From positions 7,445,098 through 7,509,097 of the forward strand of contig CAIIXF020000001.1 of NCBI GenBank assembly GCA_903813345.2: a stretch of DNA of 64,000 nt. Reading direction: 5' to 3'. A program made the translations under genes and the position numbers. Origin of the DNA: Owenia fusiformis (Eukaryota > Annelida > Polychaeta > Sabellida > Oweniidae). The notes beneath the pieces are model-generated. The model was not told the origin of the DNA, ran no database searches, and saw only the letters and a list, made by a program, of their open reading frames with translations. Shown in pieces: positions 2,474 through 64,000 of the stretch; within the stretch, counting starts at the first letter, position 1, and each line of letters opens with the position of its first letter.

Positions 2474-3204
2474 TCAATAAAAGCCAGGATTTGTGTGCTC
2501 TATGATACATTTTTTACAATGTTTTTTCACTGCTTTATAAGCATCTACAGTAACATGACAGTCCTGTATGTTCAACTGCTGTAAACCTTTGCAGGTTTTA
2601 GCAATGGCTAAGATTCCATCGTTTGTTATGGCATCGCATGATTTCAAACTGAGTTTCCTCAAATGACTGCAGAAGTTTGCTAGTATATGTAGTCCTTCAT
2701 CTGTAATGTCACATTTGCCGACATCGAGAGATTTTAATCTTGTACAATTCTGAGCAAGTAAATCAAGGCTATCATCCGATACAGCTTCGCAACCACGTAC
2801 ATTCAAATAACGCAGCTTTTTGCAATGTTTTGCGATATATTTTATGCCAACGTCTGAGACTTTATCACATTTAGCCACACTGAGATACCTGAGGTTATTC
2901 TCCAACTTTGAGAGTTCCCTCATTCCAAAGTCAGTAATTTTCCTGCAATCACTCACACTGAATTCACGGAGATTTGAACAATAACTAGCGACATATTGAA
3001 TTCCTAAATCTGTGATGCGAACACAACGTCGTAAATATAAATGCTGTATTTTAGTGCAATGTGATGCTATGATTTGCAATCCAGCATCTTCAAGGTCATA
3101 ACAGTCTGTCATATCAAGATGGCGTAGGAAGATCTGGCGGCCATTTTGTGTTGTTTGCATTGCAGCTTCAGGAGTAAGGCTGATACATGTGATACTACTG
3201 CACC
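2474..3204 (-). CDS. FBXL7: FBXL7 last coding exon (LRR repeats and C-terminus)
   Basis: This exon encodes about 243 residues from GCSSITCISL to the C-terminal IIEHTNPGFY and stop. Six or more Cys-containing LRRs are visible, each with an LxxLxLxxC(xx)ITDxG core, for example LYLRRCVRITDLG, LNVRGCEAVSDD and LDVGKCDITDEG. The 3' splice site at 3205-3207 follows a T-rich tract on the minus strand. The first two bases complete a glycine codon begun in the previous exon (phase 1). The downstream side, toward position 1, is 3'UTR or intergenic; I could not place the polyadenylation site. Confidence 0.93.
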
Positions 3205-6200
3205 CTGAAATTAAAATAATACAAATTTTAAGTGTACTGATAAATAATAGAACTTCCAAACATATGAAGAAACGGTTCACTTGGAATATTCCTATATATG
3301 TATTGCACATGGTGAATAATATTGTATCTCAGAATGAAAATGAGCACCTCAAAATTTATCCAGAATGTCAGAAAAATAATCAGTTTTACATTTTTAAACC
3401 ATGACATTGCAAATCAATCTATCAAGCGGTTTGTCTGAAAATGCACAGACAATAAACTGATAAAAGAAAGACAACACCCGCCACTTTTTCCAATTAACCA
3501 CTTGCAAGTAAAGAGCATGAACGCTAAGACATAATCAGTATAATGTGCAGCGTATAAAACTTACCTTGGAGATTGAGATATTCCAGGTTGACACACCTGG
3601 ACACCACTTCAAATATTGCCCTATTGCTAATTGTGGTGCAGCCCTGGAGCTCCAGATGCCTCAGTTCAACACAACGTTTGGCGATATAGTGTAGTCCCTT
3701 ATCTGTTAATTTATCACAGCCATTGAGCACAATCTTTTCTACCATGACACACACTGTTGGTGTATCATAGCTCAGTCTTTTAGTGAGCGATCTTAGAGCT
3801 TTATCTATTGGTAGCTCAACATTTGATAGCTTTATTGTTTTCCATAAAGATGGCTCCCATGCCAGGTTATACCAGCGTCTATTGACTAAAGAGCATCTGC
3901 TTAGTTCATCTGAAGACAAATTGGCAAATATTTTGACTATAACATCATCAGGTAAGCGATCAAATTGTGAATGCCTACTGCGTTTTTTCTTTACACCTGA
4001 CCTGATCATTCTCTCAGTGTCCTCCAGGTCTGCATCGTAAATATCACCATATTGGGCTGAATGAATGTCAGGGTAAACCACTTGTGTGGCGTAGGGGGTT
4101 GCGTAGGCAGGAGGCTCATGGTAGCCATGATTCTTGCTATTTGATGCCTGCCCTACACGAGGGTCAAGTCTATATTGCTGCGGGGCTCGTTCATGATGAC
4201 TGTTATCATATATATAATATTCATGTCCTTGGTCTGTATATTCAACATAATCATGCTGAGCATGAGCCTCTCTTTCTGCTCGATCTCGCTCACGACGATG
4301 CTTCTGAGATTTCCCGGCTGAGATTTTAGCGTAATCTGGTGTATATTCCTCTGGAGGTTCCTGGTCTTGGAATGATGTCAGAGGGGGGTAGGAGGGGGGT
4401 GCATCAGAAACAACACCTGAACTAGAGTCGTGATAAGACTGGTCTAATGTCTGGATACCATCTGAAAATACAGGGAAATAAGCATTTAGAAATATTCCTC
4501 ATTACCATGGAGTTACCTGTAAAACCTGTAAAGTGGAACATCTCTACATCCCCAAAATGCAATCTGATTTTCGACGCCGTTTCGGGTCATTTCGGCACCA
4601 AATGGACTGACTAGTCCGGCGCCAAATTTTGGTGTCGGAACAGCGCCGTTTTTTTCGATGTCGAATCGACACCAAATTATATTGGCTGTGTAATAGGAAC
4701 CCATCCAGAAGTAGGACACTTTTGAATTGAAAAGCTGCAAACTTGTTATTGTTTGTCATTCCCAGTAGTTTTTATTTTATGTCATAGTAAAGAATCATAA
4801 AATAAACAGGGAGAGAGTCAGTGATAAATGGCTCATTCTGAGGCTTTGCCTTTTAACCTAGTTTAATAACTATAATGTGATATTTGAAGTTTCAATTTTC
4901 TAATCGATAGAAATGCTAAACATATATTGAACAGCATAATATAACTGCACTTAACATTCAACTTTCTCAAAAAGAATTTAAAAAAAAAAGTTCATTGGCA
5001 TTTTCTTTTTATTGTGTCACACATACAGGAAAAATAACAAGTTAAATAAGCAAATAAAGATAGAAAGAACGATAATTGCAACTTCATCTCCAAGTGTTTA
5101 TTGTTGAAATAGCACAATTGGTTTTGTCTGTATTTACATTAGCCTAGATTCAACTTCTCTATGACGTAGAAACACTTTTTCAATGTTGCCCTCGGGCATA
5201 CAAACTGTATGAAGACACAGTATATTAGAACTTATCTACTACCCCCTGAAAATGATAAATAAAAAGATTGAATAAAAGTATAAACATAGATTGAATTCTA
5301 ATTGAGAATTTTGCTTAACATCGCTTTTTTACAATCTAGTATATTACAGGTGGTATAAAACATTATACAATAGGTCACAGGTGTTACTTTATCAAGTTTT
5401 TATTCCAAGCATTGTCAAAAATTGTGTTTTATGTATATAACAAGAAGCCTATGAATGATTACTAAAGCTTAGCTTAGACAGTGAACCATATTAAGGAGCA
5501 CAGGACTATTTGAACAAAGCTTTCTGCCTTTTACATTACAGAATAAAGAAATCCCACTATGCAAGTTAAGAATGAAAATGTTCCTATAAGCCCATTGAGA
5601 ATTTCTATTCATTACTGTTCAACAATGTTTGCTTGTAACTGGGAGTGTTTGACTTGGAGCACACTCTCGGACACTGAGATATTTCTCTCTCATTCAGCCC
5701 TTGGTTCAATCTCCATTACTAGTCTATAAAGAGTCAATTTCCTTGCCGAACCCAAACAAAATATCATAAAATTTCTTTTCAAAAAGATAAACCTTGGAAT
5801 CATAAAAAAGATTTGAACTTACATCAAGATCAAAGTAAAATACAATGCAAAATTTGTAGTTTCCAAATAAATATGTAGCAATGTGAATGTTCAACAGTAA
5901 TCGATAAGAGATTTTGGTTAGGCAATATTTAGTTACAATACATACATGACCCTGAGGGATATATTATTACATATCCATCAACCAATAAAGACCAATACTT
6001 GACCTTGTTGGAGGTTCGGCCATTTAGAGAAAATATTATGATATCTAACTGTGATGTCATCTTGAGAAAAAATCCTGGGGAGAACTCTGATATATCATAA
6101 GTTTGTGAATCTGGTAAAAATTAAAATTTTGTATCTTTTTCAAAACACTCCTATGTTTATGATTAATCACGCTAGAAGAGTCTAGTCATCCAGACTAATC

Positions 6201-24200: not shown

Positions 24201-27200
24201 CTGGAACCAGATCTCGAGTTGCCAAGGGAACCCCCTACTGAAGACATCGGAGTCATTGTGAAGTCATTGGAACTCATGTACGTCTGGGAACTTGTAAAAC
24301 TACCAGAAAAACTTGAGTTTGTTCTACAACTTCTCCCTGTAACAATAGAAAAAATAACTGAAATAGCTGAAGAACATAACTATGTTGAATTTGTTTTTAT
24401 AAGTATAAAGAAGTTAGATTCATATTTTACTAGAATCATGAAAATGAAAATATTTACCAGTTTCACTGTCCCATATGTACATTATACCCATTTTGAATAT
24501 GAATGTCAAATGAATTATCATTAACTTTCCTTGGTTATATAGTCCTAGCAAAAATAAATTAGCTGCAGATAAAAACAATCAATCAAATGAGCTGAACAGT
24601 GTCAAACATTCAAGGACTGCAACTGTCAATCATCTAATAATGTTTGTACATGATTGCCTTGATGAGCTAGCTCATCATAAAGTGTAGCATTTAACAATGA
24701 TAATATATAATGATGTGCTTTCTCTCTCTCTCTCTAGAAACCCCATGATAGAAATGTCAGGTGTGAAAAAGAAGATTGTTAAGACAAGAGCACCCCAGTC
24801 TTAATGCTGAATTTGATTGCAATTATACATTTCTGGATAATAGTATTTGAGCGAAGTCGGAACTGATGACATCAAAATAATGAAACAGAGAGTAAAGGCG
24901 AAGGCAAGTAACCAGCTTTCATCTCATTATTTTGAAGAGGCAGCTTTCATTTTCAGACCTCCTAGATTTCAAGTCATGTCAATGTGGTCATTAGTTCCCA
25001 CCATGCTTGCTGACCATGTTCCTTGCACAAAACAAAGTTTCACAACGTGAACAATCATGCATTGAGTTCCCTCACCGTGAACTACAAAGAAGTTTGGGAG
25101 AGAGGAAACATTTGTTTGTGACTATAGAATCGATAATTATGTTGTGAGAACCGTGGTTCGGTAGGAAGGAACGAGGACAGCGAGGTCGGAACTGATGAAT
25201 TTGTGAGAATGTGAGTGGAAGTCTTAGAGGCCTAATTTTTCAACAAAGCTCAAGTTTTGCCAGTTTTGCTTCAAAAACACTAATTTTGATCAGCCTTATA
25301 AATTCATTGATTAAAATATGCAAATTTAACCCTAAATTTTTTACTAGCATTTAGCCATATTCTAGATTGAGATTTTCCATGGTGAAATATATTTTGGGAG
25401 AGGGTGGGTCTGAGGGAAAGAATATGATGAATATGAAATTATGAATTTGATAATACGAGTAAATACTTAGTTTAGCACTTTAAATGATTACAGACAGAGA
25501 ACTTTTGAATAGTAGGTTTCGGAAAAAGGCTTTGGGTTTGGGGCTTTGGGTGGAGAAAAACTACATCATGCCCGTAGCCAGGGGGGGGGTTCGATGGCTT
25601 GGAGCGAAACCCATCTGGCCAAAAATTCTTTCAAAATCATGCAGTTTTTCACCATTCTGAGTACTTTTGAAGTGATTTTGGCCATTTCTGGACCACAATT
25701 GTCAAAAGTGAACCCCCCTGGAATTTTTCAAAAAGTGAACCCCCCTCCCCTTGGAAAATCCTGGCTACGGGCATGTACATGTACAAAGCTTTCCATGTGT
25801 CACTAACTTTGAATTTTGGACTCCATACTACATATACATGTATTCAAAAAAATATATCAATGGTGATGAGCAGTTATTGAGATAAATTAATTGTTATGTT
25901 TTTGAATTAAAACGTGGTTAATGGGATTTAGGCCAAGCAAATGGGCTCATAAAAGGCCCAAACATCCCAAAAATTGCAACAGTTTTTAAATTAGTCTTAT
26001 ATTATGTATTGATATCAGTTGAAAAACATATCAAAAATATAGAAAAATGTATGCAGTGGACAAATATGAAATTTCACTTCCTAGGTACCCCCTACAACCC
26101 TACCCCAAAATTGAGTATTGGTAGGAAACAATGTTTTGTTCCCAAATGGAATACTTTAGTCAAGTATTCAAGCTTTATTACGATAGATCACATATTCACA
26201 AATAATTAAAATATCGTTTTGATCATTTTTGAGACCAGTAATTGGTCATTTGACCCCAAAGTATAACAAAATAGGCCAGAAAACATGCATGTTATCACAT
26301 ATCTATTTAAATATTTTAGGATCAGTTTGTCTGAAAACCATGAAAAAAATCATGGTGTTACATATTCATATGAACTTCATATTTGGTGAGTATCAGACTT
26401 CTAACTTGTACACTTAGGAAGAAAAAAATTATTTCTTTTTCATAGTTTTGCCCCGCCCACTAGGGGAGACTATAGTTTTGAATATCTATTTAGATATTTT
26501 AGGATCAGATTGTCAGAAAAGCATGAAAAAAATCATGGTGTTACATATTCATGTGAACTTAATATTTGGTGAGTATCATAATTCTAACGTGTAGACTTAC
26601 AAAGAAAAAAAAATTTCATTTTCATAGTTTTGCCCCGCCTACTATAGGGGAGACTATAGTTTTGATGACAAACTCCCACAATGCATGACATTCGTATTAG
26701 AGTTGACATCTAAATCATTTATATAGGCTTGTCATCATCTAAAATACAGGTTTTGTGAACCTTATTAGTATGAAAATAGGAATTATTAGTTGCACCAGGT
26801 GAAATGTTAAGGTGACCTCACTTTTAATTGATGAATAATTACATATCACCACTCTGATATTAGGGTATTTGGTAACTGCTCTATACTAGGCTTATCTAAA
26901 TAATGTATTGTAGTTTCTGTGGAATTTAATATTGTTTAAATTATTAATTACAATCCGCAATTACAAAATTTGCATATATTTAAATTCATCAGATAAATAA
27001 ATCATTACTTAAGAATACATTACTATGGAACTGGATGTATAATGTTGTAGAAACGATTTTATGGTTATTTAAAGTAATTTAACTGATAGAGCACATTTAA
27101 ATCTCAGATATCTGGGGAGTCTTTCATTAAAATTTCAATGGAATGATGGTAATTCTGTCTGTCAGGTTGGAAAACATTGAGTGTACATGTGCTACACATT

Positions 27201-42596: not shown

Positions 42597-42750
42597 TCCG
42601 TAGCCAGGGGGGGTTCGATGAGTTCGAGCCCTCCCCCTGGCCAAAAAAATCTTTCAAAATCATGCAGTTTTTCACCATTCTGAGTGATTTTGGCCATTTT
42701 TGGACCAATATTGTCACAAATGAACCCCCCTGGCAAATCCTGGCTACGGG
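42597..42750. mobile_element. CCCGTAGCCAGG inverted-repeat element, copy 2
   Basis: Same ends as the copy at 25571 (one base changed at the left tip) and a shared interior including TCAAAATCATGCAG and TTTTTCACCATTCTGAGT, with internal deletions. It is in the RSU1-HIGD1 intergenic space. Confidence 0.75.
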
Positions 42751-43188
42751 CCTGTTATCCTTACATGCATTAATCTAATATTTAGTGTTTTTGTAGAATA
42801 GGAGATAGGAGAGGACAAAGTCAGTATGCGATACATCTATTATAAAAGACAGGTTTCCAGTCATTTTGATTTTGCTTTCGTACCAATACAATATGTACAT
42901 GATTTCTACTAATTGAAAGCATCAAGTACAAAGCATCATACATGTACATTCCTTGTAGTATACAAGTATTTATCACAAGATCGTCCATAAATCTGTATTC
43001 TTCATTTAGTCTATCCATCAATGGATATTTTATTCCGTTATTCATTGTATAAATTGTTTATTCCATTATTTTAAAATAACACAATATCAGTCATAATGTA
43101 TGTATCCTTCCTTGCATCCATGATGATTCATAATGAGTATATGTTTCTGGAATTCTCTTATAATAAAATTGCCTAATTTATTTCCATG

Positions 43189-44049
43189 CTATTGCTCTGA
43201 ATTGGAGTCACTTGCTTTTTGTTTATTCTCTTTCTTCACATAGTCTTTAAGGAGGGTGTATCCCATACCTAATGCTATGGCACCAACTACCATACTCTGG
43301 GCTCCAACACGAAGCTTCATTAGGAACACAGATGTCGATTCACGTCCTCGATGCTTGTACTGAGTAGCGGCATAAACACATGCACCTATTAGACCAGCCC
43401 ATCCTGAAATATTAATCAAATTATACTGTATACAGTGCAAAATATTTATTCATAATGTATTTTAAGTTCTGTAAATTCACTAGTGTTGCAAAAATTCTTC
43501 CCCCATCCATAAGTAGTGGAGATAAAATCGATTTGTAGGCCATGGCTCATGTTTAGAACACACTGTACTGACTCTTGTGATATTTATTTCAATAAAGTTA
43601 TTATGTAACAACATTGTTTCAATAAGACACTTTTAATTAGCTTTTAAATTATTTCATAATAAAATATAATTGTAACAAGGGTTCCAATAAAATAGGGGAA
43701 GAGGGGGTATACAGGTCCAAAGATGCAATATAGTAAAACCTGTATATATTGAACATTTTTTGCCGAGAAAGAACATTCAGTGTTGGTAGATGTTAACTAC
43801 AGAGGGTCATTTATACAGAACTCAGTAGAGTATGTGCGAAGGAGGGGTGTCTACTAGAGATAACTGTTCATTAGAGAGAGTTGTTCACAGATAGCTTTTA
43901 TTGCACTATGACTAATTAGTTCTTTAAGACTCACCTAATGGGACATATGGGGCTTCTTGAATTTTCCTAGAAAGTTTTGAAGCCTGTGATTCCTCTTCAT
44001 ATGAGGTCATTTCTTTCCCTGCTACAGGACTATTTGACATTGTGGAGGT
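43189..44049 (-). CDS. HIGD1A: HIG1-domain mitochondrial protein, HIGD1-like
   Basis: Two coding exons: 43935-44040 (ATG at 44040) and 43189-43403 (TAG), phase 1, giving 106 aa. The first exon continues 9 nt into a 5'UTR that begins at a TTTCCAG acceptor, so an upstream untranslated exon exists. The sequence has the HIG_1_N signature: SYEEE, SKLSRKIQEAPYVPLGWAGL, a first hydrophobic helix, then LMKLRVGAQSMVVGAIALGMGY as the second helix, and a charged KKENKQ tail. Family knowledge: HIGD1 proteins sit in the mitochondrial inner membrane and modulate complex III/IV assembly and hypoxia responses. The spacing and the AP(Y/F)VP(L/V)G motif resemble HIGD1A rather than HIGD2A. The 1A symbol is by similarity and could be 1A/B/C-like. 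Confidence 0.9.
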
Positions 44050-45680
44050 CTGGAAATAGAAATCAATAAAATTAACATAGAACTAGTTTATGGTTATAGT
44101 CTCCTAGTGAATGGATTACAGTATTACAGTGTCTGATACAAGCGCAAGGTGCCAATAGACACGTAGCCTTTTGAATATGTTGCAATATCTGCCTATAGGG
44201 ACATTATAACATTTTATGATTAAAATCCTTTAAAACGCTTTTTCTCTCAGAAATCTCATTACAATTTTTGATCATCATCTCTTTTGAAAAATCTGAAGCA
44301 AAATTAGTTTTTCTTGGCCTTCAAGTAGTACATTTTAATTAGTATAACATTTTTCGATTTGAAACATGTAGTGCATTATAAAGTTTTTCCTCGGACTTCA
44401 ATCATGACCTCACAACACACACCATTGCCTACTTCTAAAAGATCAGATATAAGTTGCTTTGGGGGAAACAACAAATTTAAGACCAGAATCTTTCTGATCT
44501 AATTTTTTTGATTTAATCAAATCTCAATTAGATAGATCATTCTGCTAGATGAGGTTAAAGGGAAATTCCTTCTCAGACTATTTCTGTCCTGATATGGTAG
44601 CTATAATAATTTATATACTTTACATATTTAGCAAAGCACGTGAAAATGTTTTGATATGGTCAATATTGATCATTTAAAAATGTAGTACTCCTGGACCCCA
44701 CAAGTAAGCGGACAAACTCAAAATATAGCCCCATGACAGTAGTGTTCTGAAAAGAAATGCCACAGACTGACAGAGAAGCATTTTTCACCAATTTTGAAAA
44801 CCCAAGGCAATAATTTTGTTAGTCCAACAAATTAAGACCTAGCCTGGGGCCTTGTTTCTTATTTGACATGACTGTCTTATGGCCCCGACTAAATAACGGC
44901 CAAGACAATTCCTAATAGTAAAGAAAGTCGTCATTAAGTTTAACGATATCTCTATTGAACTAGCCTATAGCCCACAGATCCGGAGCCAGATACTATTGGT
45001 AGTAGGCTCAAAGGATATATGGGAAGATAAGACACGGGCCAAAAAAATGACCACCCAAAAATATGACCCTCGTACTGACCTTTATTTTTTCCATCTGCCA
45101 GACATTGATTGATCAATATTTACCCTGTAATCTCTTCTTTATGTATTAGTTTGAATGGTTGCATGATATCCATTATTGACGCTGTAATTAGACTTTTCCC
45201 GGGACATTTATTTTAAATTTTCAGAGCTTAAAGATAATGGAGTGCTTCGGTAATTTCCGGCAATGTCCGATGTTGTTCGTCTCTCAAATTATGTCACATC
45301 GCAACAAACAGCCAATGAAAGTAAAGAATCGCGTAGCCTAACAAACCGTTGTTATTGTTTCTATGGGAGTTTAAGAAACGTCATTGGACTTCTCATTAAT
45401 CTCTGATGTGACATCAGCCGGAGTGGCGTCACATTCTCAGTAAAGGCATTTCACTTCGGGAATAATCATTTGAACAACGGAGATAGCCGAAGCGCTCCAT
45501 TAAATATACGCTCGCTTATTTTATGCTTTTAGACGCTTTCTTGGATGTGTGGCTTTAGTGATTGGAGTTGAAGCTAACAACAGTATGAATCGTTTGAGGT
45601 ATGACATGTGATATTTATTGAAAAACTTGACTCCAAAATCAATGAAAAATAAATTTTCCGAAGATCGCGTGTCTTATCCT

Positions 45681-50204: not shown

Positions 50205-53200
50205 TTATTCTGTTTTAAGTTCAGGTAGTGGTCCAGCACTACCGGGACGGGGTCGCTGTTGACCACTAGATGGACGGTTGCCAGAGTGTGGGCGCCTTGC
50301 ACTCGGTGGACGGCGAGCACTTGGGGGACGGTTTAAATCATTTTGTACACTGGCAATACTTGCTGCACTTCTAGGGCGCACAACACTTCCTTCTCGGCTC
50401 ATTGGTCTTCCAGCATTTAGATCATCATCAAGGTTGAAGCCACTCTTGGTCCAAGCTGTTTCACGACCTTTCACCTGTAACATTGAACATTAATGCATTG
50501 TATTGATTAGTTAGTTTCCTAGCAGATAATACTAGTATAAAAACAGTTAAACCTGTGTATCTGTGTATGTGGATCACCTTTGGTACCTCGAAATAGTGAT
50601 CAACTTGGGATGTGTTCCACTTATAGAGGTTCATTTCACATTAAGAATATACAAATTTTCAAGATTTTCAATAATTGCAATTTGTGGAAAGGATAAGGTT
50701 TTTAGATTTACAGAAAATTATGAATACCATACCTAGATCTACATAATTTATCACCAAGCAATCTTGTAGTGACCTTTTCTACATACTCAATTCACAGACC
50801 TCATTAAGTTCAATGACCTGATGAAGTTTACTGATGCAATTGAGATCAAATTAATAAATCCACTAACCTTATTAAGGCTGTATTGAGATCCCATCAGATT
50901 CTCCACATCTTTAGCTCCAGCTTCTATGGCATTCTTCATGTCCTTATCAACACCAGACACAGACATATCTCCAAACACCTTCAAAATACATACGTGTACA
51001 TGTACTTTACAAAATTAACAGTAATGTAGTCATGTAACTAATTTAAAATGTGCATGTGCTAAAAAATTAATAATTCATTAAAAAAAATCAACATATCTTC
51101 AACGCTCGTACAATATGAAGCTATTGTTTTAAAAAAACACAAATAATTGAACTTCATCTTAAGCCCTTTGATTTGAAAATGCTTTCTGAAAGCAAATACC
51201 TCCACAATGGCTCCATCAGGCATCTTGAGGAAGTGTCTATGCAGCTCCCTCAGTCCATCAAGGTGACATGTGTGTACAGAGACATGGGTTGTCACCTCTC
51301 TCTTACATTCATTCTTCTCTACAACTTCCCCATTCTCATCCCAAATTGTCTCCTCCAGCTAGAAACATTATAGTAACACATTACAGTTTAATTGGAGTAT
51401 TCTTATATTTGAGTAACTTTTTGGATATTTTGGAAGATATGAAACACTCGTTAATTTTTCTGTTCATTCCACACATGGCAAATTATGCTTATTACTATAT
51501 GATCATTTTAGCATAACATGATTTTTGGGCGCTGATTTGATCATAAGTTTCAGAACAGTATCCAGTACTTTTCACTTTTGACTGCGACATTACTTTTCAC
51601 CTTTGATTCAATGATATCATTTGTTTTACAATTTCAATAATTTTAACATAAATTCTAATACTAGTAATTGAATTGCAAATCATTGTCCAAATGCAAGTTC
51701 AAGATGATGCAACTTAAAATTAAATTGATGAAATTTCAGAACTACATAATTTTCACTAATATTAAATACATCATACTCACATTTTCTTCCTCCCATACAT
51801 AGTCATAGACCGCCACTTTACGCCTCTCGCCTTCCTCTCCTCGCCATTGCTCAGACTTCTTTGTGATGTAACTCAGCTCCTGATTGGACAGTTCAAGGTC
51901 ATACGGAACAAAGAAATTATCCTCTTTACCATGCAGTCTCCAGTAAACATCCAGCATGCGACCATTGTTGTGAAGTCTGGAAATATTTATTTATTCTTAT
52001 TCTTAATAGCAAGGATGGAAGTAATTTGAATGAGTTTTAAATGGACAACAGCATTTTTCAGAGATCAAAAAAGTATCTCTTTCACAAATAATTTCTAGTT
52101 TTTCTTTTATCCTCAAAAAACAAAATGAAAGATGATAATGCATAATAATTTGAGAGGTTCAATATCAACCCATTTCATGTGAAATAACCTCAATATGTCT
52201 TTATAAAAATCACATAGCTACTTTACCTGAGGAAGTACATGTACAGTATGCTCCCAGCGCAGAAACAGGTGAATATATAGAGAAACACCGTGATGAGGAT
52301 TCCCGCCAATCCAGAGCCCTCCGAGCGAACAAAGTGCCAGTAAAGCTTAGCAAAGTCTCCAATAGGAATGTCTCCACCCAAATTACGCCAACGCTGTTAA
52401 TCAAATGAAAAATATTATAAGTAATATGCATGAACAACATAATCAACATGCATCAAGTGGACTTTAATAGTCACTGTACATATATATAGTTAAATATAAA
52501 GATGGCAGTTCTTCATCATGAAATCGACAAATCCCAAGTTGCCAGATTTATTGACTTCAAAAATTTATATATTGAGGGGTTTCATGTGATTAGAACTTTT
52601 CAAAACCTTTCAAAAGTTGAAACATTAAAATTGATTTAAGATGTCCATTATTGGCTGTATACTTCTCATATATTCTTTCAATCTGATATTATATATTTAA
52701 TAGGATTTATTTGCACTGATGCCCTTTTAAGGCCGATCGTTCATCCAACAACTGCAATTTTCAATTACAGTAAAAGAAGTAATAAAGTAAATAAAATAAA
52801 ACTTATTTGCAGCAACAATTAAGCTGAAACTCAAAACCACTAATATTTGAAATAGACTCTAAGATGTAACAACATATAATTATAACCCATCCTGGATGGA
52901 TGGATGGATGGATGGATGGATGGATGGATGGATGGATGGATGGAAAATTCAATGACAAAGATATGGCATCATCATGTTTCAACATTGGTGGTGGTCATTT
53001 TGAAAATGAAATCAAGTTTCAAAACTAAATCAAGATCCAAAAGAATGTCAAATTGCAAAAGAAGGTCAAGTTACAAAATATATATCATGAATAAGTATAA
53101 CCCATGTCACATATCAGAAATTTATTATTTCAAATAGTTTAAAAATAGAAGAAAGCTCAATTTCTCTCCTCTCCTAAACCAAATTATTTGATTACAAGCC

Positions 53201-56200
53201 TTTAAAGAAAATTTGAACTTGTGAATGTTAAAGGAAGTACAGAAATCATAATAATTACATCCTCCACTATGAGTCATCTACTTACATCAAACATTACTGA
53301 ACTATATAGTTGTTGAGTTTAAGTGGTATAAAAAGTGATATATACCATGTTGTCCTAGGACCTAATCAATTTTATGTAAACGTTCAACATATTAGGAAGC
53401 AGCTTGCCCTAAACTAGACATTTACTGTTATTCAGAGAAAAATATACTAGTATTAAAAGAAACATCATCTATCTGCAGTAACGAAAATGGCTCATTCACA
53501 ATATACCATTGTGAGCTGTTTATTAATGGCAGTATTTCTTGCAATGTTTGGAACTATCGGGCTCTCTCGCTGGATTACCATTCATCAATCACATGGAGTT
53601 TCTGAAACTATCATGCTTGGCTTGTTACTATCCCTTCAAGTAACAACAGTCATACTTCTCTTTGTGTTTACAAGAGTGAACAGGAATCAATGGAGGTATG
53701 TTCCCTGGAGGCTCTCTGATACACATGGAATAACAATCATTGGCCTAACTATATTCCTCATCGGGACATTCATCTACGATATCTTTAGAATCATCGCCAC
53801 AACCGAGTGCCTTGATGTTTATCGCCATTTCCATGAAGAATATGTTGAGAAAATATTAGACGTCATACTCCAGATCTTCAAACCATTGTTTTATATGTCT
53901 TCACAGTTGTTGTTTCTGATGTGGTGTAACTATGGTAACATTCAGAACAATCCAAACATTAAAAACACCTCTGTGTTTATATTTGCATCAGGGACAAATG
54001 TGTTTGTCTGGATCTATTCATTTTTGTTTGAATCAAAAGGAATATTTTATCAGAAAGAGATTGAACACAACATAACAATGCTTGCCCCTGCTATCCAAAA
54101 ACATGCAAATGAATGTCTGCATGGGGAAAGTAGAATGCAGAGAACAGAGGAAAGTGTGGAGATTTATCTTTACCCTGTTCAGCTAGAGTTTTGTATCTTA
54201 GCAACCAGTTTGTTACTCCATACTTGGTCCCATATAAAACACAGTCGTATGAGCATGCACATTGCCATGATTGACTTTCCAACAGATAATGGTGATGGTG
54301 GTTCAAATGATGATGTGAATAGACAGCATGATCTGGTTCAAAGGAATTTTGCTCAAGAAAATGAAGCAAGTGGAAACACTAATGTAATTGGTGGGACTGA
54401 TACTAACGCCCAACCAGGACATACTGTGAAATGCTACGGACTGTTATGGTTCGCTGGGATATTCTTAATGACTTTGATGTTTATATTTGAGTGTCTTTTA
54501 TACGTTGAAACATTCTACAGCAAAGCAATCCTTGTTGTTACCGCCATTAAAACACTTTATGATCCATCTCTTGCGATAGTATGTGCGTATGTAATACACA
54601 AGCTAAGGAAATCTGGGAAAATAGAGCAGTATGGTAATGTTGATACAGAATGTGTCATCATGATAATTGCATCCCTCGGCCTTATCATTGATGCTACTTT
54701 CACCTACATTTCGGCCTTTCCAACATTAATCTACCAAGATGTTAATCCAAACTGGGCAAATATATGTAAAGAATTTACAATTATTAACCACGATTTAGAT
54801 AAGGATGAAAGCATCCGTCGATTCCTGATCATTAATGGTTTATTGTTGGTAAGGCAGACATTCAAACTCATATCAGTGTTGCTTCAAGTATATTTGATCA
54901 TAATATTGAACTGCTTCTATACAGGCCCCATTGATAGCTGGTTATCTGAATGTCTTGGATTCATGATGATGCTAAACTTGGGCCACTGGTTATCTGACAG
55001 TATTGTAGAGGTGAAGTTTATGAATGCCTCACCCGTACGTGTACAGTTCTTCGGATGTGACAACTGGCTTGTCATAGTTCACTTGTATTTCATTCTAGTG
55101 ATTTACTTCAGGTTCCACAGTGTGGTACTGCTATCGGAACATATTAGGCATAACAAGCATGTAAAGCGGCATGGACAACATAATGGCTATCAACCCTTGG
55201 ATGGTGATAATATCCAAAACGTGAACAACCAATAAACAACAATGATTAGCAAGATATGAAGGAGGATAATGAATGAACTTACACACAATAGTAGCTTTTT
55301 TGATTCTGTAAATATTCATTTCTAAATTCTATCATTTTGTACATTATATTCTGAATATAATTGGATATGAACATGCATTATCATTAAACTTTATAAACCA
55401 CCGTTATCTGTTTTCCTGTTGTTTTGTATAAAGTGATCAACTTGATCTCATGTTAATTTTCAACTAATTGTTCAAAAAACTGCTTCAACATCCATTAAAT
55501 GCTTCTATATTTAAAGGCTCATAGCAAGCTTATTATACAATGTACAACATGACAGGCCCGTAGCCAGGATTTTCCAAGGGGGGGGTCACTTTTTGGAAAA
55601 TTCCAGGGGGGTTCACTTTTGATATTTTTGGTCAAAAATGGCCAAAATCACAAAAAAGTGCTCAGAATGTTGAAAACATGTGCAGTGTCGAACAATAATG
55701 AACGATAAGTATGCAGTTTGACTACAAGAGTGTTCATAATGAAAGTCTCATCAAAATTTAATTCAAAATTGTTAACCCCAGTCAACACCCGAGCTAACAA
55801 TATTAACTTCAAAATTAGAGCTTTACCAAGTATTGAGAGATCTACTTCATACAAACCACTCTTTTACATATTCATATGAAACGCCTACAGTATGTAAATA
55901 TCTTGTCTCGTGATGTTTAATATCCAGGCATCCAGGGGTCATGATAGAACAGTTAAATATAACTTCCCTGTACCGATAGATAAGGTCACATCAACCTTGA
56001 AAGATATCATATAATTATTATTTTACACTTTTGTTTCCCAAATTCGAATACATTTTTTATTCCCGTCATCTCCTTCAGGGAAATGACATAAATGCAACAA
56101 GTTATACAACTTTAGAAATCATTTCTGTATTAAACAGATCTGCAAAAGGGTTCAAATGTATGATAATTTATTAATCATTATGTCCTATTATCCTTTATTA

Positions 56201-59200
56201 ATTATTTAAGGCTATCTTTTGATATGACATGCCTGAACAAAACTGAGTGTGGAATAATTAATAATTTTGGCTGAACTAAACAATCAGAATTGAATTGTGA
56301 TGCAAATGATAAAACTTTCTTTGTATAAGCATTCACTTTCATTTTGAGTTTCTAAGAACCAGGAAGTAGAAATGAAGATATACAGAAAGCTATAAATTAA
56401 GCTGAGGTTTCCTAAACCAAGATCCTGAGTTAAACTGATGAGTCAAATGAGTCAATTTAATATTTTGCAGTGAAATTTACTTTGTAAGTTCTGAGCGTTG
56501 AGTATTATATGGAGCTGATGTAGAGCAGTGTTGTCATTTAATTTGAAGTACCTAAGTACTAAGAACATTGGATTAAAAAACATCAGGAGATTGAAACATA
56601 CTGTATTGTCAAACTTTAATGCAAATATGGCCCAATCTCAATGGACAATCGTGAGTTATATACTAATGGCAGTATTTCTGGCAATGTTTGGAACTATCGG
56701 TCTCTCTCGCTGGATTACCATTCAGCAATCACATGGGGTAACTGAAACTATCATGCTTGGCTTGTTACTATCTCTCCAAGTAACAACAGTCATACTTCTC
56801 TTTGTGTTTACAAGAGTGAACAGGACTCAATGGAGGTATGTTCCCTGGAGGCTCTCTGATACACATGGAATAACAATCATTGGCCTAACTATATTCCTCA
56901 TCGGGACATTCGTCTACGATATCTTTAGCATCATTGCCACGACTGAGTGCCTTGATGTTTATCGACATTTCGATGAAAAATATGATGAGAAAATAATTGA
57001 CCTTGTATTGCTGATCTTCAAGCCATTACTATATATGTCATCGCAGTTGTTGTTTCTGATGTGGTGTAACTATGGCAACATTCAGAACAATCCAAACATT
57101 AGAAAGACCTCTGTGTTCATATTCGCAGCAGCCACAAACTTGTTCTTCTGGATATATTCGTTTTTGTTTGAATCTAAAAAAATATTTCTTCAAGAGGATC
57201 CTGAGTACAACATAACAAAGCTTGACCCTGCTATACAGAAACATGCAAATGAATGTCTACATGAAGAAAGCGAGATGCAGAGAACAGCAGACAATGTAGA
57301 GATTTATCTTTATCCTGTTCAAATGGAATTCTGTATCTTAGCAACCAGTTTGTTACTCCATACTTGGTCCCATATAAAACACAGTCGTATGAGGATGCAT
57401 GATGATGATGATATGATTGATTTTCCAGCAGATAATGGTGATGGTGGGCCAAAGGATGATGCAAATGGACAGCATGCTCTGATTCGTAGAAATAATGGCC
57501 AAGACAATGAAGTGAATGGAAATAACAATGTGATTGGTGGGAATGATGCTGACCCTCCACCAGTGCATGAAGTAAAATGCTATGGGCTATTATGGATCAT
57601 TGCAATAATGCTGATGACTCTAATGTTTACGTTTGAGTGTCTTTTATATGTTGAAACATTCTACAGCAAAGCAATCCTCATTGTTATTTCAATTAAAACA
57701 CTTTATGACCCATCTCTTGCAATAGTATGTGCATATGTGATATACAAGCTAAAGAAATCTGGGAAAATGAAGCGGTATGGTAATATTGATACAGAATGTG
57801 TCATTATGTTAATCTCATCTCTAGGCCTTGTCATTGATGTCGCGTTCACCTATATATCTGTTATTCCAACAATAATTTACCAAAATGTTGATCCTAACTG
57901 GGCAAATGAGTGCAATGACTTAAACATTATCCATGATATATCAAACAATGATGAAAGTGTCCGTCAATTTCTGATCATTAGTGTTTTAAGTTTGGTACGA
58001 CAGTCATTTAAACTTATTCAAGTCATGTTACAAGTGTACCTTATAATCATATTGACCAGTTTCTATACTGGCCCCATTGATAATTGGTTATCCGAATGTC
58101 TCGGGTTCATACTCATCCTTAACTTTGGTCACTGGTTATCAGACAGTATCGTTGAGGTTAAGTTCACCAATGCTTCCCCTGTTCAAGAACACTACTTTGG
58201 ATGTGACAACTGGCTTGTCATAGTTCACATATTTTTCACTCTGGCAATCTACTTCAGGTTCCACAGTGTGTTAATGCTATCTGAACATGTTAGGCGTAAT
58301 AAGCATGGACATGATGGCTATCAACGACTGGATGGTGATAATGTCCAGGAACGTGAACAACCAGTAAACAACAATGACCATGCTTGATTAGCAATCAAGA
58401 TATGAAGAGTGAATAATATAAGGGATTTTTATAAATATAACTAAGGCAAAGAACATATTTTGAAAGTTTAAACCTTGGTCCCTGACTGCTACTCTTCTAA
58501 ACTGTCCATGTATTTTGTGTTTACGAAGCTGTGTTTACTTGAATGACTACAATATACCACATTTTAGTGCATACAGTATTTATACTCAAGTTCTGTTTAG
58601 TTGATCTTAAGAAAGTGAATATTCAACATTGAATGAAACACTTTATTTTTCAACACCCTTTTAATATTTCAAACATCACGAGGCAAATCAAGCAATGTCA
58701 ACATGTCTGGCACTTTTCTTTCATTGATATACCTTTTGCCTTTTATTTTGAATGGTAGTGCCTTTTTAAAGATGCTATATCATCAGTTCATTGGAAACAA
58801 AATCCAAATATTTCATCTATGAAGAGCAATACCTATTCATTATTTAATAAATTTTCAAGGTGTATTTCATTTTTACAGTTTAAGTCTCCCAAGACTTTAT
58901 GTCACTATATCAAGTTACTGGAAGGCCAAAGCGACCTATGTGTCAAATTCAGCTAAAAGGTAATAATATATACCTCCATGAAGCTATATAACACTCTTGT
59001 CTCTTTAGTCTCAAAAAAGTTCAAGGTCACATTTATAGGTCAAGGTCATCAATATGGGTTCCAATTCCTGTAATGCCACAAGTTTTATCTTAAGTGAGAT
59101 GTATGAAACTGCCCTAGTACAATTCAAGTATTTACTTACCAAAAGTGCACAATCTATGGCTGCAATGAGGAAAGGGTCCAGAAAAGCTTGTATCCCATAA

Positions 59201-60354
59201 GCCACTGTGAATTTCGATCCAATATCTGGGAAAGAACCAAGAATCCTTTGACAGAGCCAGCTGCTTATGACCAATATCGTGAATATAAGAACATTCATGA
59301 AAGGCCCTATGGTCACCAAAGCAATCTCTTCCCTTGTGTGAAGCAGTGTATTCTGGTAGTTCAAACTCACTGTGTATGGCAGGAATTCAAATCTGAAAAA
59401 GAATTGTTTAACACATTTCATATTTGGCTATTTTCAAGTTAAAGCAGTATTTCTTTGAGATCTTTGGAATTGTTTTATTCATAAATCAACTTGATTAAAA
59501 TATTTCATAAAATGAAGAACAAAAATATTCACTTTTAACTCTTTTTCATCATTCAAAAATTTCCAATGCTAATTTCCTCTAAATACACTGTACAAAGATA
59601 GTTTTCACTGAAACACAATTTCTTGAAGACAGATTTTAGTGACATTTTCAAATAAAGCAAAAATATTCATTAAGTTATGTTATCCATATTTCCTTTTTGC
59701 CTAATACTGTTGTAATCACTTACTTGTTAATCGGGATTGAAATTCCATTCAAGAAGAGCCACTGGCCGATGTAATGCATGTACATACGAATGAAAAACAC
59801 GACCACAAACATCAACAACATGCCCCAGAATTCTCTACTTCGCCACTGGGAGAGTCCGAGTTCTGCCATAAACTGACGACCAACGTAAGAGACTTTCTCC
59901 CAGCCATTCCTTGCTAGGGAGCCTTTCCCAGAGAATGGTGGCCTGAAATTAAAAAAAAATAATTTCTTGATTTATATTTACAATTACATAATTTTTCCAC
60001 TCTTTATGTGTATTACTGATTTTTAGGAATTATGTGATCCATCCTCCTTTCATCCAGTCAACAACTCTTACACTGACTGCACATATCAATAGACATTACT
60101 CATGAACTAAATTAGATCTACAGTACATAATATATCTAATAAACTTTGATACATAAGGACTACATACACACTTTAATGTAATTGATTCAGAGACTTTATT
60201 GATGGAACACTTACTGTACAGAGAATGTATGGAGCTCCAGTTCTTCAAGATGAGTCAACTTCTTTTTCTGACGTTTCTTGGCCAGAAGTGGTGTCTTTGG
60301 GATCATGGTATACATTTTCTTATGGTACACATCCACTGGGTTGTTCAGATGACG
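50205..60354 (-). CDS. Unidentified multi-pass membrane protein, C-terminal 504 residues (5' end outside window)
   Basis: Eight in-frame exons: 60215-60354, 59724-59942, 59140-59392, 52227-52393, 51781-51976, 51200-51358, 50868-50978, 50205-50474 (TAA). Nearly all have GTAAGT or GTGAG donors, and phase is consistent throughout. The visible part starts [15 protein letters not shown] with a Lys-rich stretch. It has at least four hydrophobic segments (around [51 protein letters not shown]), then a conserved-looking soluble domain ([42 protein letters not shown]). The tail is disordered and Pro/Ser/Arg-rich, with repeated RPPSAR units. No Met begins the first visible exon, so upstream exons lie beyond it, probably past 64000. 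I do not recognise the family. Exon-intron structure and domain quality argue for a real conserved gene. Confidence 0.82.
52893..52944. repeat. (TGGA)13 microsatellite
   Basis: Perfect tetranucleotide run in the large intron of the unidentified membrane-protein gene, 0.5 kb upstream of the first otopetrin-like gene. Confidence 0.97.
53487..55235 (+). CDS. Otopetrin-like proton channel family protein, copy 1
   Basis: A single uninterrupted frame of 582 aa with about twelve hydrophobic segments (roughly residues 8-30, 41-62, 81-103, 125-147, 162-182, 230-248, 317-342, 348-370, 388-413, 445-472, 485-503, 525-550), the otopetrin layout of two six-helix halves. Family-type landmarks: [13 protein letters not shown] followed by TECLD after helix 3, [14 protein letters not shown] in helix 5, [17 protein letters not shown] in helix 6, and near the end [10 protein letters not shown] with [12 protein letters not shown]. 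Family knowledge: otopetrins are plasma- or organelle-membrane proton channels used in acid sensing and biomineralisation. Sequence identity to vertebrate OTOPs is clearly low, so proton conduction is inferred. The acidic, Asn-rich loop (about 255-315) lies between the halves. The gene lies within a 6.7-kb intron of the opposite-strand gene. A CTGCAG 8 nt before the ATG may be the acceptor of a 5'UTR intron. Confidence 0.88.
   Translation: MAHSQYTIVSCLLMAVFLAMFGTIGLSRWITIHQSHGVSETIMLGLLLSLQVTTVILLFVFTRVNRNQWRYVPWRLSDTHGITIIGLTIFLIGTFIYDIFRIIATTECLDVYRHFHEEYVEKILDVILQIFKPLFYMSSQLLFLMWCNYGNIQNNPNIKNTSVFIFASGTNVFVWIYSFLFESKGIFYQKEIEHNITMLAPAIQKHANECLHGESRMQRTEESVEIYLYPVQLEFCILATSLLLHTWSHIKHSRMSMHIAMIDFPTDNGDGGSNDDVNRQHDLVQRNFAQENEASGNTNVIGGTDTNAQPGHTVKCYGLLWFAGIFLMTLMFIFECLLYVETFYSKAILVVTAIKTLYDPSLAIVCAYVIHKLRKSGKIEQYGNVDTECVIMIIASLGLIIDATFTYISAFPTLIYQDVNPNWANICKEFTIINHDLDKDESIRRFLIINGLLLVRQTFKLISVLLQVYLIIILNCFYTGPIDSWLSECLGFMMMLNLGHWLSDSIVEVKFMNASPVRVQFFGCDNWLVIVHLYFILVIYFRFHSVVLLSEHIRHNKHVKRHGQHNGYQPLDGDNIQNVNNQ
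55557..55678 (-). mobile_element. CCCGTAGCCAGG element, copy 3, truncated and inverted
   Basis: It begins CCCGTAGCCAGGATTTTCC and continues through the reverse complement of the copy 1 interior (GGCCAAAATCAC, GCTCAGAATG), losing the other end. It lies between the two otopetrin-like genes. Confidence 0.7.
56627..58387 (+). CDS. Otopetrin-like proton channel family protein, copy 2
   Basis: An intron-less frame of 586 aa from the ATG at 56627 ([10 protein letters not shown]), which aligns with the start of copy 1 ([10 protein letters not shown]). An earlier in-frame TTG at 56528 would add 33 residues but has no counterpart in copy 1. It has the same twelve-segment layout, with [34 protein letters not shown] and [13 protein letters not shown]. 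It clearly arose by tandem duplication with copy 1, 1.4 kb upstream in the same orientation. The inter-half loop differs most and carries a DDDD run, while helices 1-3 are nearly identical. The C-terminal tails differ in length and both end in Asn-rich sequence. Confidence 0.88.
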   Translation: MAQSQWTIVSYILMAVFLAMFGTIGLSRWITIQQSHGVTETIMLGLLLSLQVTTVILLFVFTRVNRTQWRYVPWRLSDTHGITIIGLTIFLIGTFVYDIFSIIATTECLDVYRHFDEKYDEKIIDLVLLIFKPLLYMSSQLLFLMWCNYGNIQNNPNIRKTSVFIFAAATNLFFWIYSFLFESKKIFLQEDPEYNITKLDPAIQKHANECLHEESEMQRTADNVEIYLYPVQMEFCILATSLLLHTWSHIKHSRMRMHDDDDMIDFPADNGDGGPKDDANGQHALIRRNNGQDNEVNGNNNVIGGNDADPPPVHEVKCYGLLWIIAIMLMTLMFTFECLLYVETFYSKAILIVISIKTLYDPSLAIVCAYVIYKLKKSGKMKRYGNIDTECVIMLISSLGLVIDVAFTYISVIPTIIYQNVDPNWANECNDLNIIHDISNNDESVRQFLIISVLSLVRQSFKLIQVMLQVYLIIILTSFYTGPIDNWLSECLGFILILNFGHWLSDSIVEVKFTNASPVQEHYFGCDNWLVIVHIFFTLAIYFRFHSVLMLSEHVRRNKHGHDGYQRLDGDNVQEREQPVNNNDHA

Positions 60355-61435: not shown

Positions 61436-64000
61436 ATGATGGATACCGAACGTACATGTAGGAAAACAATCAGACAGATTTACATCCTCGTTGCTCTATA
61501 TGTAATAGTCACTGCACAGAGTACATCAGCAAAGAATGGGTGCCTTTTAAGTGATAACATCGACAATGTTTATAATGTGATACTCAATACACAACCAAGC
61601 CCCTGTGAATCAACACCTATAGGGGGCACAGGTGGAGGTAATACAAGGACTAATGAACTAGAAGTAGAATATGCCAAAATTATTCAAGACAACAGAGAAA
61701 TTTCTTTGACTTTAATTCGATTACAGAATACGATACTTGACATAGCAACTGACAAAACTAACATTACATATGTAAACCAAACTTTGCTCAAAATTGAAAA
61801 TAAAATGGGACTTCTTAACGAAAATGTGATTCAACTTCAAGAGAACATAAGAAAAGGAAACATGGAAAATTTAACACAAGAACTTGATGGTTTGAGAAGT
61901 TCATTTAAAAAACAAAACAAAACTCTGTATAGATTTATCAGCAATGTGAATACTAAACTGGACGATACTACAGAAGGATTGATATTAACAAATAGACAGC
62001 TAAGAGAGACAAATGAAAGGCTTGACAATGCAATAAAATATTTAAGAAATGGAACAACAAATATACCAAATTATTCTAGTAATACTACAGGTAATACCAT
62101 GGCTTTCACCTTAGTGTCATATTACTAAGGTCATACAAAGTTAATAACATGCTAAACATCCTTGCAAAAGACGATCTATTAGGGAAATTAAGGTGAAAAA
62201 CAAATGAAAATCAAAACCTTTATTCATCATATTTCTATTAGGATCTTTTATTATTCAAAAATACCATAAGGCATTCAAAGTGCATAATCTATAAAGGGAC
62301 ACATCACTTAAGTTCACATTAACTTTTTTAATCAATATTACTGAAGCTGAAACACTGGTCCACAGCTGGAGTTAAGCTTCATCCTAGATGGGGGACAAAA
62401 TTCGTTTGATATTGATAAACTTTCCATTTAGGTTAAACCATGTAAAATCTTGATTCAAAATACTTTGTCATACAAACTAATTAAGTTTCTGCTGTAGCTC
62501 AAATATCTCTGAATTTGGTGAAATTCAAAGGAAACAGCTTTGCTAAAGGATGATACTAACTCAAAAAATTATATTTTTGGAAGTGATGATACAACTCAGT
62601 CTACTCCGTTTGAGTTAGTATCATCCCAATGTAAGCAAAACCGTGTTGGCGTTTTCTTTAAATTCATTTAATTTTGAATATGTTTGAGCATGTTTTTGTA
62701 CAATATGTAATTCTTTACAATCAAGACATTACTAGTTTGCGTGGCAAAATATTTGGGATCCGGATTTTTCTTAGTTTAGCTAAAATCGAAGTTAATCAAT
62801 ATCAAACAAACTTTGTCCACCATTTTGGATGACTGTAACTCCAGTTAGTATCATCCTGCTGCAGACCAATTGTTACAGTTACTGAAATAAGTTTGAATTA
62901 TTTCAAAATCTAATTTTAGTTGAGAAATGTCCACCATCTTCAGTACAGTATGAAGGAACATGCTACACATTCATCAAACAACAGATGACATGGCATCAAG
63001 CTGAGTTGACGTGCCTAACACTGGGGGGACATCTGGTGGCCATAGAGACCCAATCAGAGCAGGACTTCATAGTAGGGTACTTAGATGACAATGGTAGGAT
63101 TCCTATTATTATATGCTCTTACTCGATTAATTTAAAGATTAGTTAATAGCACATATGCTACAAAAACAGCAACTCTTGAAGTAGCAAATACCAATGAACA
63201 AAACATAAGTATTTCATGAATTACTTGTTTTTAACAATCACCAGGAATGGAAATAACTAGGCAATAATACTGTCTCATTTTTTGCAAAATCTACACCTAT
63301 GGCATGACATGACGCCATATTATCGATTCCTCCTTGAGTAAAGGACCATATGACATCATACCTACATAATTTGAACCAAATCTGGTAACTCAGGTATTTG
63401 TGTTTTCAAAAAAACATTCTGAATTCAGCAGCAATATGAAAGATATCTTCTTGAGTAGACTAACCCCACAAGACATAGGCACATACCATCTGAATAAAGT
63501 CTGACAATTGGAGTAATCAAAAATTATTATTTTTCATGAAAAATGGTGGCCATTTTAAATTCAGTGGCAACCATGAAAATTTCTTCTTGAGCAGAGGTCT
63601 CTCAACTGATATTGTTTGACTGATATTTGAGTTATCAAAGATAACAATATTTACAAAATATGGTGGCCATATTGAACTGCCGTTTTGAATTGAGCGGCCA
63701 TATTGAAAGATCCTTTCTCAAGCAGAGGTCTTATTCCCATTAACCATCAGCCTATGTAGTTTGAGGTGTTTTATTTGTCAAGCAGTGTTTGGTGGAAAAA
63801 AATTAAGTATCAATGATCCATAAAAATTAAAACAGGCATCATACTTCAAGTTCTTATTTTAGATATGAAAGGATTTGACTACTGGATTGGAGCAAATGAC
63901 TTGATACAAGAAGGACAGTTTATATGGGTCGGCACAAACAAGCCCCTCAGTTACACCACATGGGCAGATATTAATGGTCCACAGCCAGACAATAATAAAG
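61436..64000 (+). CDS. C-type lectin domain protein with coiled-coil stalk (3' truncated by window)
   Basis: Exons 61436-62090, 62920-63093 and 63863 onward, all joined in phase 1. The start is one of two adjacent ATGs (61436, 61439). A hydrophobic segment (IYILVALYVIVTA) at residues about 13-27 is a signal peptide or type II anchor. Residues about 70-215 form a heptad-like stalk (LQENIRKGN, ETNERLDNAIKYL) with many N-glycosylation sequons (NITY, NQTL, NLTQ, NKTL, NGTT, NYSS, NTTG). The lectin domain begins KCPPSSVQYEGTCYTF and continues WHQAELTC, GGHLVAIETQSEQDF, YWIGANDL, FIWV and GPQPDNN before the window ends. QPD at the calcium site is typical of galactose-preferring C-type lectins; the WND motif and last cysteines are not in view. 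A role in carbohydrate recognition or immunity is family inference. Confidence 0.87.
62548..62626. repeat. Hairpin element in lectin-gene intron 1
   Basis: GGATGATACTAACTCAAA and its perfect complement form 18-bp arms 79 bp apart end to end. A third half-site (AGTTAGTATCATCC) lies at 62843-62856, which would give a larger nested unit. Confidence 0.75.
63300..63745. repeat. Diverged tandem repeats in lectin-gene intron 2
   Basis: Three to four imperfect units of roughly 130 bp share CCATATTGAAAGAT-like, TTCTTGAG(C/T)AGAGGTCT-like and ATGGTGGCCAT blocks. They are non-coding and cover most of the intron between the two lectin-domain exons. Confidence 0.55.

Follow-up and report, generated by a model that had tools for sequence, protein, structure and literature searches.

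Two otopetrin-like genes and the sequence around them

The window (the whole 64-kb stretch of DNA that was analysed) carries two long open reading frames on the plus strand, here called genes A and B, which lie between exons of a minus-strand gene (Table 1). Neither frame is likely to be a chance ORF: when the window was shuffled 40 times by single bases, the longest stretch without a stop reached 177 codons (mean 127), far below the 582 codons of A and the 586 of B. When ten proteins from the window were run against Pfam, A and B were the two that matched Otopetrin (PF03189), scoring 55.9 and 63.1 bits, respectively, against a curated cut-off of 27.8. No intron interrupts either coding region, as a single open frame spans all hydropathy peaks found (12 in B and 11 in A); this describes the coding part, and an exon in the 5' UTR is possible. 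The GC content of the two genes is 0.38, compared with 0.29–0.31 for the remaining sequence of the intron that surrounds them. No third otopetrin copy was detected within the 64-kb window by tblastn (remaining matches had E >= 1.7), and a pattern scan of gene B against viral contigs gave 0 matches. From their sequences, A and B look like real, intact and working members of the otopetrin family, with a predicted proton-channel-like activity.

Table 1. Coordinates of the otopetrin-like genes, the matching tracts within them, and the exons and long intron predicted for the host gene.
Feature	Position	Strand	Remarks
Otopetrin-like gene A	53487..55235	+	single coding exon, 582 aa; Pfam Otopetrin E 4.6e-15
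Otopetrin-like gene B	56627..58387	+	single coding exon, 586 aa; Pfam Otopetrin E 2.9e-17
Tract without synonymous differences, gene B codons 51-102	56777..56932	+	47/47 comparable codons; coordinates computed from codon numbers
Partner tract, gene A codons 51-102	53637..53792	+	coordinates computed from codon numbers
Host exon, first seen	60215..60354	-	starts at acceptor-like AG
Host exon	59724..59942	-	one hydrophobic segment
Host exon preceding the long intron	59140..59392	-	two hydrophobic segments
Predicted host intron containing A and B	52394..59139	-	6,746 nt; splice sites, phases, open join
Host exon following the long intron	52227..52393	-	one hydrophobic segment
Host exon	51781..51976	-	splice edges GT/AG, open join
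Host exon	51200..51349	-	acceptor uncertain: 51358, 51352 or 51349
Host exon	50868..50978	-	acceptor uncertain
Probable last host exon	50208..50474	-	S/P/R-rich tail up to stop; outside the seven-exon join

We then compared the predicted proteins with solved structures. All five PDB matches of B (E up to 1) were otopetrins, all of them weak (best 5.2e-05), and so were the three matches of a profile built from A and B (E up to 1; OTOP2 at 1.7e-04 and OTOP1 at 0.053, whole-sequence E-values), while the C-terminal part of B alone gave 0 matches up to E 10. In the profile alignments the Glu of YLYPVQxE falls on the Glu of YPFNIE, and the His of YFRFH on the His of YRMH, in both OTOP1 (6nf4) and OTOP2 (8ug6). 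A and B each carry both residues, the TM6-type Glu and the TM12-type His, by alignments that are weak and outside of which the TM9 Asp region lies; the His-bearing stretches are not significant on their own (i-Evalue 3.2 to 3.4 with the profile, 0.26 in the B search). By manual count the aligned Glu and His occupy chain positions 268 and 575 of 6nf4, which we take to be zebrafish OTOP1. With a shift of one these positions fit E267 and H574 of zebrafish OTOP1, which are described as required for conduction in the relevant passages of PMC9348849. The proton path of otopetrins is outlined in an excerpt of PMC11343839 as comprising the TM6 Glu and the TM12 His, with the TM9 Asp as a third conserved residue, and 12 transmembrane segments are given for the family in part of PMC3038909. 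The A and B proteins would be expected to fold as 12-helix channels in which protons may pass along a Glu-His path between two barrels. A structure prediction from both paralogues had a mean pLDDT of 34 and was unusable for a fold search.

Elsewhere in the window, F-box and leucine-rich-repeat coding stretches lie on the minus strand at 2474-4498 (Pfam F-box-like E 3.1e-14, LRR_6 E 1.1e-29; presumably FBXL7-like), and the same strand carries at 43240-44082 a gene with a HIG1 domain and two or more exons, joined by eye (HIG_1_N E 2e-13). The window contains no tRNA and no Rfam match at gathering score.

The minus-strand host gene and its probable long intron

Seven minus-strand exons with GT/AG edges, running from 60354 down to 50868, join into an open frame of 412 aa without a stop. 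The part read has four hydropathy peaks, and the gene very probably encodes a multi-pass membrane protein unrelated to otopetrins. As the edge at 60354 is an acceptor-like AG, the gene probably extends further upstream. Neither Pfam nor PDB provided a name for it: a rough 501-aa join gave no match in Pfam at E <= 1, the PDB matches were all to unrelated proteins (E >= 0.42), and the last exon alone gave a single sub-threshold Pfam match (Barttin, E 0.096). OFCC1, a candidate name, was dropped for want of support. Upstream of the first exon seen, a single open frame of 230 aa occupies 61436-62128 on the plus strand, with an N-terminus that looks hydrophobic by eye and only sub-threshold matches in Pfam (best DUF1664, E 0.0012). 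Between 60354 and 64000 no host exon could be called with confidence; should the host gene continue beyond the window, this frame may lie nested within it as well.

The initial annotation had joined the exons on either side of A and B in phase 0 across one intron, and the edges and phases that it gave are correct as predicted from sequence. The donor (CTTTTG/gtaagtaaa, at 59140) and the acceptor (catttgattaacag/CGTTGG, at 52393) are both strong and both in phase 0, and the predicted peptide across the junction reads ...AIDCALL/RWRNLGG.... Because of these GT/AG edges, the compatible phases and the seven exons that join without a stop, we read the gap as very probably one intron of the host gene. 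The five other host introns that could be measured are 221, 250, 272, 331 and 431 nt long, two of these values resting on uncertain acceptors. By the splice sites, phases and open join, A and B would lie wholly inside a single host intron and antisense to it; their ORFs, Pfam matches and splice-site context all agree with the earlier description of two complete, intron-less, otopetrin-like genes nested in this way.

Duplication, probable gene conversion and origin of the pair

Alignment of the A and B proteins over 577 residues shows 447 identities (77%). Between the two genes dN is 0.124 and dS 0.550 by the NG86 method, and 0.130 and 0.463 by YN00, so that amino-acid change amounts to about one quarter of synonymous change, indicating purifying selection on the pair. 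Synonymous divergence is very uneven along the gene: dS is around 0.1 in the windows spanning codons 31-120 and reaches 0.96-1.41 in those of codons 391-540. Within codons 51-102 all 47 comparable codons are identical, against 271/376 outside, and in a scan over all 423 comparable codons none of 300 shuffles reached this. In tandem gene pairs gene conversion is a usual cause of such tracts, and conversion between A and B is the simplest and probable cause of this one; local constraint could also have kept synonymous change low there. Homology beyond the coding regions was assessed with single-base shuffles. The 3' flanks gave z-scores of 3.8, 1.8 and 3.5 over 60, 150 and 300 nt, while no clear homology was seen in the 5' flanks (0.2, 1.0 and 2.4 over the same lengths). 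As the values are uneven, the duplicated unit has no definable bounds; the faint 3' homology past the stop codon fits an old tandem duplication at the DNA level. A dispersed repeat lies between the two genes (55547-55676, plus strand), with a further copy at 25646-25782 (87% alike over 137 columns, including a G-rich run) and part of one at 42684-42758 in the opposite orientation.

Taken as a whole, the locus is in all likelihood a single-exon otopetrin pair, duplicated in tandem, partly converted and sitting antisense in one intron of an unrelated membrane-protein gene. This reading builds on what the sequence itself establishes, namely homology, intact frames, restrained amino-acid change, nesting as judged from splice sites and exon phases, and a tract free of synonymous differences. 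If the flanking minus-strand exons belonged instead to two different genes, nothing would be nested, and the host protein indeed has no named homologue in Pfam or PDB to bridge the gap. We consider this very unlikely, as both splice sites are strong and share phase 0, hydrophobic segments occur on both sides, and the seven-exon join is open throughout. Furthermore, an in-frame stop immediately precedes the acceptor at 52393 (the frame is open from 52396), showing that the exon at 52227-52393 needs a spliced partner and cannot begin a gene alone. A rough scan for stretches open over at least 90 nt with a codon score above 8 found no other minus-strand exon in the gap; short or weak exons would escape at this threshold. 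Another view concerns the tract at codons 51-102, which might be a functional DNA or RNA element, such as a splicing signal or regulatory sequence belonging to the host intron. Its location antisense within the host pre-mRNA and the complete identity of its comparable codons would suit such a role. It is, however, a single tract in a tandem pair, where conversion is a usual cause, and the 300 nt that flank the coding regions at each end show no similar conservation; we regard a functional element as improbable.

The remaining alternative addresses the origin of the pair and is compatible with the nested, duplicated and partly converted arrangement preferred here. The initial annotation had noted that vertebrate otopetrins are multi-exon, in agreement with the part of PMC3038909 in which exons 4 and 6 are named, and had proposed retroposition followed by tandem duplication. 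The duplication holds, given the paralogy of A and B; the retroposition lacks its expected marks. There is no poly(A) remnant, the longest A run being 6 nt after either gene, and the two ends of the whole A+B unit share no exact direct repeat of at least 11 nt. Taken separately, A and B are each flanked by exact repeats of at most 12 nt, which falls inside the spread obtained with shuffled whole-unit flanks (mean 10.5, maximum 14, 200 shuffles). We therefore do not class A and B as retrogenes by poly(A) or target-site duplication; age may have erased such marks. That the ancestor arose when the processed mRNA of a multi-exon otopetrin was copied into the host intron, to be duplicated there later, is nevertheless a tenable if somewhat doubtful proposal: neither coding region has an intron, and the host intron that holds them is 6,746 nt long against 221-431 nt for the five others, as if a segment had been inserted. 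The ancestor would have lost or lacked introns either through retroposition or as a member of an intron-less subfamily. The word "intron" is absent from the main text of two otopetrin papers, and among the matches listed none had a title about otopetrins that are single-exon or nested (a search of titles and, in part, abstract openings, with subscription literature mostly outside it). Altogether, in the preferred reading one ancestor would have entered a formerly short host intron and given rise to A and B by tandem duplication, after which gene conversion would have partly homogenised the two; each would be transcribed from its own plus-strand promoter.

Nested genes and known otopetrins

Intron-less genes nested in the introns of other genes are a common and well-known genome layout. 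According to parts of a published account, internal genes are typically short, lack introns and in most cases occupy the strand opposite to the host, while the hosts tend toward many large introns (PMC8467205). With respect to expression, the same parts report positive correlations between nested genes in early microarray data, divergence in later RNA-seq from Drosophila and, for mammals, no additional divergence; transcriptional interference is discussed there as a cost of nesting (PMC8467205). These mixed results offer no firm expectation on coupling between host and guest. The host pre-mRNA, antisense to A and B over their full length, might regulate them (or the reverse), with the tract as a kept regulatory element of the antisense pair. 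Were this so, the membrane-protein host gene and both acid-sensing channels would act as a single switch; we find the idea very improbable.

The arrangement is real but ordinary, that is, divergent otopetrin members in a known type of layout, and it leaves the general view of nested genes unchanged. It does offer a clear example of two ion-channel genes that look functional and lie within one predicted intron, with signs of gene conversion between the two. It also brings divergent members into a family of proton channels whose roles in invertebrates are known only in part and include acid sensing and biomineralisation, as stated in a section of PMC9348849.

Like known nested intron-less genes, A and B have no introns in their coding regions, lie on the strand opposite to their host and are associated with duplication. 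They differ in being two tandem copies within one intron, and in that the other host introns measured are short. A nested opposite-strand gene is also known at an otopetrin locus, Ush1g being placed within the first intron of rodent Otop2 in the available part of PMC3038909. There, however, the otopetrin is the host, whereas here it is the guest, and the two cases are unrelated. With otopetrin proteins in general (PF03189; OTOP1-3, OtopL and nematode otopetrins) A and B share the Pfam match, the Glu and His of the path (by weak alignment) and 11 or 12 hydropathy peaks that form two halves joined by a hydrophilic linker. Compared with the solved otopetrins they are highly divergent, as the best PDB E-value of B indicates, and their coding region is a single exon.
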